Positions 49,670 through 51,477 of a DNA stretch of 51,477 nucleotides are shown here, in pieces. The stretch is from NCBI GenBank assembly GCA_007692665.1, contig REBP01000100.1, positions 1-51,477 on the forward strand, written 5' to 3'. How positions within the stretch are numbered: the first letter of the stretch is position 1; the number at the start of each line of letters is the position of its first letter. Made by a program: the position numbers and the translations under genes. This DNA is from Gemmatimonadales bacterium. GTDB lineage: Bacteria; Gemmatimonadota; Gemmatimonadetes; Longimicrobiales; Gaopeijiaceae. The notes below the pieces were generated by a model. It ran no database searches. It was not told the origin of the DNA and saw only the letters and a program-made list of their open reading frames with translations.

Positions 49670-50746
49670 TCAAGGCCGGTTCCCGGTCGGATTCCCGCAT
49701 CCCCGGCCGGCGGCGTGAACCCCCACCCCCAGTTCCTCGCGCACGAGCTCGAGGAAGGACTCGACCACGGGTCGCACGGGTCGCTCCGCGTCCTCCCGCC
49801 ACGCCATGTCGATACGGGTCTCCACCCCGCCCACCGGCAGGTAGCGCACCCCCTCCCACCCCATCTTCCGGATCGAGGCGGGGACCAGCGTGACGCCCAG
49901 CCCGGCTTCGACGAGGCTCACGGTCGTGTAGAGTTCCCGGGACTCCTGCACGACCCGGGGCTCGAAACCCGACGCGCGGCACACGGCCATGACCTGCGCA
50001 TGGAGCCCCGGCGCCAGCTCCTCCGGGAAGAGCACGAAGGGCTCGTCGGCGAGGGCCCGCACATCCTCCAGGAAGAGGTCGTCCGGGGCCACGCCGCCCC
50101 CTTCCCCGCCCGCCAGCGCATGCTCCCGCGACACCGCCACCACCAGCGGCTCCCGCATGACGGTTTCCGTGACCACCCCGGTGGTCTCCGGGGGCTCGCG
50201 CACGAACCCCACGTCGATCTCGCCAGCCTTGAGCGCCGCAAGCTGAAGTCCGGTAGGAAGTTCCCGCAGTTCGAGCACCACGTCGGGGTATCGGTCCCTG
50301 AAGGCCCGGAGGAGCGAGGGGAGGGTCTGGAACATGACGGAGGATGCGAAGGCCACGGCGAGCCGGCCCGTTTCGCCCCCTGCGGCCCGCCTTGTCGCGT
50401 CGAGGACCCCGTCCAGGGTCTGGACGACGCGTTCGGCGCCCTCGAGGAGGACGGCCCCGGCGTCGGTGAGGAGCACCCGGCGGGTGGTCCGGTCGAAGAG
50501 GGTGACCCCGAGGAGCTCCTCGAGCCGCCGGATCTGCTGGGAGAGCGGAGGCTGCGCAATGCCGAGGCGCGCAGCGGCTCGACCGAAGTGCAGTTCCTCG
50601 GCGACGGCCTGGAAGTACCGGAGGTGGCGCACCTCGACGAGGTGGGGACGGGGCGCGGGTGCGGGGGAGGGGCCGGAGGCGGCGGAGGGGCCGGAGGCGG
50701 CGGAGCCCGAGGCCGCGGCATGAGGCTTCAGTGGATTGACATTCAC
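49670..50746 (-). CDS. LysR-family transcriptional regulator
   Basis: The product is up to 358 residues. The winged-helix domain starts at about residue 37 (VEVRHLRYFQAVAEELHFGR, then AAARLGIAQPPLSQQIRRLE) and the effector-binding domain covers about 125-340. The best-match relatives begin at the VRHLRYF segment. The 38-residue extension from the GTG at 50746 is Ala/Ser/Pro-rich with a GPSAAS repeat; a GTG at 50632 would remove it. The extension and the exact start are therefore uncertain. Such regulators often act on a divergent neighbour, here the plus-strand gene at 51434. Confidence 0.9.
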   Translation of the reverse strand: MNVNPLKPHAAASGSAASGPSAASGPSPAPAPRPHLVEVRHLRYFQAVAEELHFGRAAARLGIAQPPLSQQIRRLEELLGVTLFDRTTRRVLLTDAGAVLLEGAERVVQTLDGVLDATRRAAGGETGRLAVAFASSVMFQTLPSLLRAFRDRYPDVVLELRELPTGLQLAALKAGEIDVGFVREPPETTGVVTETVMREPLVVAVSREHALAGGEGGGVAPDDLFLEDVRALADEPFVLFPEELAPGLHAQVMAVCRASGFEPRVVQESRELYTTVSLVEAGLGVTLVPASIRKMGWEGVRYLPVGGVETRIDMAWREDAERPVRPVVESFLELVREELGVGVHAAGRGCGNPTGNRP

Positions 50747-50884
50747 GTCGTATCAATAGCGCCTCGATGATTCATTGAACAGCCGGCTGCGCCGGTGTCG
50801 TGGGAGGTGGGAGGTACGGATCACGATCCGGATGCGGCGGGGCGCGCCAGGGTGGCGGGAAGTTGCGCGGCCCGTGCGCTGAAT

Positions 50885-51070
50885 CTGCCAATGGGCGGCC
50901 ACGGATTCGGCGAGTGGCAGCGCGAGTGCCGAAAACGGTACCCAATCTGCCACTCGCTCCGGAGGTGAAGCGACGAGTGGCAGCAGGAGTGCGCTGAGGG
51001 CCCTCGGGCTGCCAATGGCGCTCCGGGAAGGGCTCCATTGGCAATTTCGCGCACTCGGGCCAGCGGGAGA
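50885..51070. repeat. three tandem 62-bp repeats, each with a CTGCCA...TGGCAG hairpin
   Basis: Units begin at 50885, 50947 and 51009, exactly 62 bases apart. Each starts CTGCCA(A/C)T and carries the matching arm (A/G)TTGGCA or GTGGCAG about 36 bases later. Unit 2 has perfect 10-bp arms (CTGCCACTCG/CGAGTGGCAG) and unit 3 perfect 9-bp arms (TGCCAATGG/CCATTGGCA); unit 1 has 6-bp arms. Arm sequences differ between units 2 and 3 in a paired way. They lie in the 687-bp gap 50747-51433. Confidence 0.75.
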
Positions 51071-51071
51071 G

Positions 51072-51318
51072 GCGGGATCACCCCCTCCGATCCCGCTGAA
51101 GCCCGCCCGCTGCCCGGTCGCAACCAGAGCGCCGCGTCAGGGTATCGAATGCGGAAAAGCCCGCAGGGGGGCTCAGGAGGCCAGGCAGACAGGCTCGATG
51201 GTCTCCGCACCATCAAGACGCCTGGCGTCTCAATAGTGCGTGTCCGATCTATTGGACATCCTGCCGGGACGTGCGTTAGCATCCAAGGGTGAAGGGAAGG
51301 AGCGCGCAGGGTGCGCGC
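51072..51318. repeat. series of short hairpins upstream of the last gene
   Basis: Perfect inverted repeats follow the 62-bp array: GCGGGATC/GATCCCGC (51072-51079, 51089-51096), GATGGT/ACCATC (51197-51214), AGACGC/GCGTCT (51216-51230), CAATAG/CTATTG (51231-51254) and GCGCGC/GCGCGC (51302-51318). TTGGAC at 51252-51257 and TAGCAT at 51277-51282 could be a promoter with a long 19-base spacer. Several hairpins lie downstream of it, in the leader of the gene at 51434. Confidence 0.5.
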
Positions 51319-51327
51319 ACTTGCTCG

Positions 51328-51398
51328 AGGAACCGCAGGAACCGCAGGAACCGCAGGAACCGCAGGAACCACAGGAACCGCACGACTGCAGGAACCGC
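51328..51398. repeat. 9-bp tandem repeat tract in the leader of the last gene
   Basis: The 9-base unit AGGAACCGC occurs four times in a row (51328-51363), then AGGAACCAC, then AGGAACCGC to 51381; after ACGACTGC a seventh copy lies at 51390-51398. Each copy contains an AGGA core similar to a ribosome-binding sequence. Such tracts can change length by slippage. Confidence 0.85.
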
Positions 51399-51433
51399 CG
51401 CACGACGCCACGAGGAAATCCAGGAGGAACCCC

Positions 51434-51477
51434 ATGAGCACCGCCACCGATGTCGCGCCCGAGGCGCAGGTCGACAC
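51434..51477 (+). CDS. start of an unidentified gene cut by the window edge
   Basis: Only 14 codons are visible (MSTATDVAPEAQVD). The ATG is preceded by a strong AGGAGG (51422-51427) at good spacing, which makes it a credible start. It is divergent from the LysR regulator and follows the hairpin and repeat-rich leader. The product cannot be named from this fragment. Confidence 0.6.
   Translation, partial: MSTATDVAPEAQVD

Follow-up and report, generated by a model that had tools for sequence, protein, structure and literature searches.

Near its end, the window, a stretch of 51,477 nucleotides, includes the intergenic region between a gene for a LysR-type regulator and the first codons of a divergent gene (Table 1). 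We take the latter to be 4-hydroxyphenylpyruvate dioxygenase-like (hpd), a name given by sequence recognition and not by profile search. Contig C125 of the source genome (G000) ends with the window, whose last 55 bp, 51423-51477, overlap contig C142 exactly (G000:C142:16781-16835, locus L014), so that the contig end is evidently an assembly break and not a biological end. On C142, hpd continues (L014:15700-16824, - strand) and is followed by a gene that we presume, again by sequence recognition, to be homogentisate 1,2-dioxygenase-like (hmgA-like), the two forming what would be an hpd-hmgA-like operon. Eight 9-bp AGGAACCGC repeats stand directly upstream of hpd at 51328-51398.

The same intergenic region holds an array of three inverted dyads. 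A sequence-only reading had described three units that start at 50885, 50947 and 51009 and repeat exactly every 62 bp. Both the positions and the pitch hold for this locus, while other copies of the array are spaced at 60-63 bp. The pairing of CTGCCA with TGGCA(G/A) that it described is also present, over spans of 36, 37 and 36 bp. The proposed end at 51070 moves to 51044, or to 51047 with the flanking ATT.

Table 1. Features of the lysR-hpd intergenic region and its flanking genes in the window.
Feature	Position	Strand	Evidence or remarks
LysR-type regulator gene, neighbour, outside the element	49670..50746	-	PF00126 4e-25, PF03466 4e-44
Whole three-dyad element	50882..51047	.	AAT...ATT boundaries; covariance-model matches
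Dyad H1, 36 bp	50885..50920	.	Half-sites CTGCCAATGG and CTGCCACTCG (reverse); arms incompletely complementary
Spacer 1	50921..50946	.	Near-palindrome GCGTCATGACGC in other copies; degenerate in the window copy
Dyad H2, 37 bp	50947..50983	.	Symmetry centre; both arms CTGCCACTCG
Spacer 2	50984..51008	.	
Dyad H3, 36 bp	51009..51044	.	Half-sites CTGCCAATGG and TTGCCAATGG (reverse)
Candidate LysR operator CAATAG-N12-CTATTG near the hpd promoter	51231..51254	+	Perfect match
First codons of hpd, divergent gene	51434..51477	+	Contig overlap, ORFs

The window contains two matches to CTGCCA-N14-36-TGGCAG where 0.06 would be expected, and two or more matches were seen in 0 of 100 shuffles. Covariance model R1, whose training set includes the window copy, matched it at 50883-51047 (E=3.3e-26), and model R2 matched it at 50881-51048 (E=8.5e-19). 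Tandem Repeats Finder did not report the array because the half-sites alone repeat.

The sequence-only reading had called for a search of the genome and its relatives, and the unit recurs in both. In the source genome, CTGCCA-N20-30-TGGCAG is found 28 times, compared with 6 for a reversed-pattern control, and the matches nearly always form triplets with a pitch of about 61 bp. After re-alignment and orientation, all 13 arrays found by this pattern were 157-160 bp long; a further isolated dyad or partial array lies at C240:5564. A covariance model built from 12 of the 13 arrays detected 15 full copies, each with three dyads at a pitch of about 61 bp within some 157-160 bp. The E-values of the training copies are not independent evidence; the copies on C42, C107 and C65 were outside the training set. 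Each of the 15 copies was matched on both strands, because the element nearly equals its own reverse complement, and copies occur in either orientation.

Most of these copies follow a stop codon at a distance of about 20-120 bp (C180, 32 bp; C240, 86; C253, 117; C103, 72; C140, 119; C158, 23; C65, 75; C72a, 99; C72b, 65; and C107, determined separately, 110), by gene calls from a custom codon-based caller that are approximate; Pfam supports most of the flanking genes. The neighbours are unrelated to one another and include amidohydrolases, a rhodanese, CtaG, Omp85, a serpin and acetyl-CoA carboxylase, among others. Two copies depart from this 3'-end placement, namely the window copy, which is upstream of both neighbours, and the C34 copy, which is upstream of an amidohydrolase. 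On C103, the first dyad seems to share bases with the 3' end of a DAP-epimerase-like gene, including its stop codon (L044:3004-3021). Inspection of the alignments around the copies in this genome did not establish terminal inverted repeats (TIRs) or target duplications.

Two copies were found in G001, a genome of the same genus whose contig C70 corresponds to record SKNW01000091 (Gemmatimonadetes bacterium CSSed162cmA_30R1). The C34 copy of the source genome and the C44 copy of G001 share one orthologous intergenic gap, with flanking orthologues 81% and 71% identical; between them the loops have turned over, whereas the half-sites and their spacing are kept. Beside the C34 element there are also tandem CCGATGCCGGGTTTGACCGTC-type repeats (L041:2560-2740), apparently absent from the orthologous G001 gap. 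Other genera of the order have the same architecture with different half-sites: CCGCCA in G041 and G047, ATCCCA in G005 and CTTCCA in G043. Dyad lengths in G000, G001, G005, G041, G043 and G047 are mostly 35/37/35, with starts at 0/60-61/122-123, and the element is therefore mirror-symmetric about the centre of its middle dyad. Both spacers often contain a shorter palindrome of their own.

A model using sequence alone, from cross-genus alignment A2, matched 18 of 346 genomes of the phylum at E<=1e-3, and many same-family genomes in this search had none. A geometry score, which presupposes no half-site word, supports further lineages, with G017/G080 (CCTYCA), G018 (TCACCA, spacer palindrome TGTGCGGAATTATTCCGCACA), G045 and G095 scoring 86-102 of 135 against a null mean of 70; the ten best null scores were mostly 74-82, with one at 105 that is possibly a real element. 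Weak model matches in more distant families (L253, L254, L255, L257 and L258) lacked the architecture and scored 67-76, within the null range. Outside the phylum, a pattern scan of species genomes gave scattered single chance matches, the exception being the same-genus genome; viral contigs gave three single matches and no triplet, and plasmids none. A distinct motif, the 15-bp palindrome CTGCCATTTTGGCAG, is present in many same-family genomes, often as tandem copies about 21-23 bp apart (G132:C386:3489-3567, G119:C52:9847-9907, G090:C61:120865-121007 and others), and resembles an operator or enhancer array.

Conservation within the element is concentrated in the half-sites. Among the copies of the source genome, mean pairwise identity is 0.90 in the 7-bp half-site cores, 0.41 in loops, 0.43 in spacers and 0.27 in flanks, with 0.28 expected from composition; the half-site value is possibly inflated, since an exact pattern was used to find the copies. 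In 21 dyads that fall outside the search pattern, half-sites still averaged 5.3 of 6 matches, against 3.0 for a best-of-five null. The earlier view that the array is not a simple duplication is supported; the pattern recurs in the genome and its relatives, and its dyad half-sites are conserved.

The sequence-only reading had also seen compensatory change in the arms and had called for covariation analysis, and here the family as a whole tells against it. The arms do change together from unit 2 to unit 3, but the compensation is inconsistent, as unit 1 sets AATGG against CGAGT, a mismatched mix of the two arm types. Variable positions of partner arms did not covary in the family. Across 25 elements, a half-site arm matched its own partner at 7.61 of 10 positions and arms of other dyads in the same element at 7.51 (p=0.23). 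In a separate test, partner matches at arm positions 7-10 numbered 23, 15, 21 and 25 where 23.1, 16.3, 17.6 and 23.9 were expected (p 0.17-0.73). The swap is a mixture of two half-site variants, with one of each in unit 1. As a caution, a pair of matching arm swaps within a single array can mimic RNA covariation when kinds of half-site mix. With half-sites conserved, loops free and arms not covarying, selection therefore acts on the half-sites and the distances between them. This is what a DNA-binding complex would impose, and argues for one, the binding itself being something that we infer.

Evidence of mobility comes from two other genomes. In the complete genome G005, the array occurs in about ten dispersed copies with common flanks, having three or two dyads and differing by one 61-bp unit, inside a recently multiplied element of about 200-350 bp. 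Several of these copies have ends GGCSTGTTCACRCTRCG in inverted orientation, resembling TIRs, with CTAG at the boundary, and by eye this CTAG in places supplies the stop codon of a neighbouring gene (G005:C1, L219-L225). No autonomous partner was found in G005, where GGCSTGTTCACRCTRCG ends are essentially confined to copies of the array. An insertion breaks up one of these copies (L222), and by eye the insertion's ends and the remains of its coding sequence look like those of an IS3-family element. Copies in G047 are 80-96% identical. Shortened 113-bp variants, several of them with this 80-96% identity, were seen on G047 contigs C34, C97, C209, C405 and C27, one pair of them in direct repeat 217 bp apart. 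Together, the G005 and G047 data would favour mobility at some time, and the long-term constraint on half-sites would favour continued binding.

Based on these observations, we propose, with a probability of roughly 0.6, that the array belongs to a family of dispersed, MITE/IRU-like intergenic DNA elements, each about 160 bp long, in which six alternately inverted half-sites of about 10-13 bp are read by protein. A sequence-specific DNA-binding protein, either a transposase/recombinase or a host protein, would bind the six half-sites as one rigid complex, the specificity of this complex would have diverged between lineages with the half-sites following, and the element would be, or would once have been, a non-autonomous mobile unit tolerated at the 3' ends of genes. 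Between lysR and hpd, the window copy is probably a resident insertion whose effect on both genes is incidental at most. Against this proposal, no binding protein or transposase was identified, no autonomous partner with the G005 ends was seen, neither TIRs nor target duplications were established in the source genome, and the window copy occupies no gene 3' end, being upstream of both neighbours. The strong half-site constraint in old copies exceeds what a purely selfish relic should show, suggesting that the element serves the host or is still being bound.

The strongest competitor, which we nevertheless regard as unlikely, is a host-selected and non-mobile binding array with about 15 sites per chromosome, serving chromosome organisation or regulation through a nucleoid-associated, domain-boundary or segregation-type protein. 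It would account for half-sites that stay constrained while loops drift, for the orthologous position kept by the C34 and C44 copies despite loop turnover, for geometry that is rigid across genera and for sites that occur almost solely as complete triplets. However, presence and copy number vary strongly, from the few positive genomes of the phylum to the many same-family genomes with none, and the copies in G005 and G047 have recently multiplied, those of G005 with TIR-like ends.

It is improbable that the element is a structured RNA, whether a small RNA array, a leader or a 3'-UTR element, in which three hairpins are selected for pairing. The 196-nt region does fold more stably than its shuffles, with z of -3.3 on one strand and -4.1 on the other, most copies lie downstream of stop codons, and units 2 and 3 have complementary arms. 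Nevertheless, the arms lack covariation, the element is nearly strand-symmetric and is matched by the model on both strands, its length is constant while its loops are near random, and it matches no curated Rfam family. The sequence-only reading had placed the array outside known families, and the absence of an Rfam match agrees with this; of its alternatives of selection for a dyad or for an RNA fold, the conserved half-sites sustain the first, and the second, with the structured leader or small-RNA array built upon it, finds no support in the non-covarying arms.

We think it very improbable that the array is the operator through which the adjacent LysR protein controls tyrosine catabolism by hpd/hmg, even though it lies within the lysR-hpd intergenic region. 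The same array stands beside about 14 unrelated gene sets, and no specific association with a LysR gene emerged across the copies of the source genome. Moreover, there is a separate perfect CAATAG-N12-CTATTG dyad near the hpd promoter, which, with a two-mismatch copy at the lysR start (50754-50777), forms a candidate LysR operator pair. In G089, hpd adjoins neither lysR nor an array; this locus, considered as an empty-site control, is not syntenic. The earlier suggestion of a multi-site operator was thus right in kind, as to DNA half-sites, but its tie to the neighbouring LysR gene is at odds with the 14-15 or so unrelated neighbourhoods. Least credible of all is an origin by chance or by functionless local tandem duplication, for although the genome is high in GC and rich in inverted repeats, the shuffle and reversed-pattern controls and the recurrence of identical geometry in other genera speak against it.

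Returning to the protein-read dispersed element, we tentatively suggest that it may be an undescribed kind in this order, one with six mirror-symmetric half-sites in a geometry fixed almost to the base pair, whose word has been repeatedly replaced and which is read by a re-specifying DNA-binding complex, either a transposase/recombinase or a chromosome-organising protein. Dispersed palindromic repeats are usually taken as mobile relics or RNA hairpins, and here fixed geometry, letters that change by lineage and stems that do not covary separate DNA-protein recognition from hairpin formation. The prediction is that a protein exists whose specificity for DNA has changed along with the half-sites; if found, it would reveal either a new agent that moves intergenic elements or a new system of chromosome binding, in a phylum that has received little study.

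Several known systems were compared with the element. Recombinase-in-trio (RIT) elements were among the candidates because they have palindromic ends. Integron attC sites carry the motif GTTRRRY, which is absent from the half-site, and this candidate was rejected. A sigma-54 promoter-like TGGCA-N-GC spacing, seen by eye in units 1 and 2, was also rejected, as unit 3 misfits and other copies lie at gene ends. Prokaryotic MITEs such as QMITE, Chunjie and Correia have been reviewed (PMC10969869), and like them the element is short (<500 bp), non-coding, multi-copy and dispersed between genes, with 15 copies of about 160 bp in the source genome. Several of its G005 copies have TIR-like ends flanked by a short repeat, CTAG. 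Unlike MITEs, its interior is a rigid array of six half-sites conserved across genera while the letters change, no TIR was detected in the source genome, and no cognate IS was found. ERIC/IRU (127 bp) and YPAL/RU-2 (about 168 bp) are intergenic palindromic elements with consensus sequences for species groups (PMC2229807); the element resembles them in length, dyad symmetry and intergenic dispersal but consists of three separate fixed-pitch dyads, of which the half-sites alone are conserved and are specific to lineages.

REPs are reported to maintain their palindromes by complementary mutation, and REP/BIME are associated with RAYT transposases (PMC2817692). Like REP/BIME, the element is intergenic and has several lineage-specific palindromes, but its arms do not covary and it has about 15 copies, compared with >100 for REP. 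RAYT (Y1_Tnp, PF01797) was found in none of G000, G001, G005, G041 and G047, whereas control genomes matched, and the element alignments have no conserved GTAG/CGTC-type tag at the hairpin foot. A REP/RAYT system was rejected on these three grounds: no RAYT, no complementary changes in the palindrome and no foot tag. In the open PMC literature, with subscription papers outside the scope, we found no description of such an element in this phylum. BrickBuilt of Porphyromonas gingivalis is described as a minisatellite inside a MITE (PMC4596501); the element is similar in having tandem repeats inside a MITE and differs in that its repeats are inverted dyads spaced at 61 bp, which number exactly three in almost every case. 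The element is best placed in a new family of dispersed intergenic repeats of MITE/IRU-like type, unusual for its rigidity, to which the definition of a MITE applies in part.
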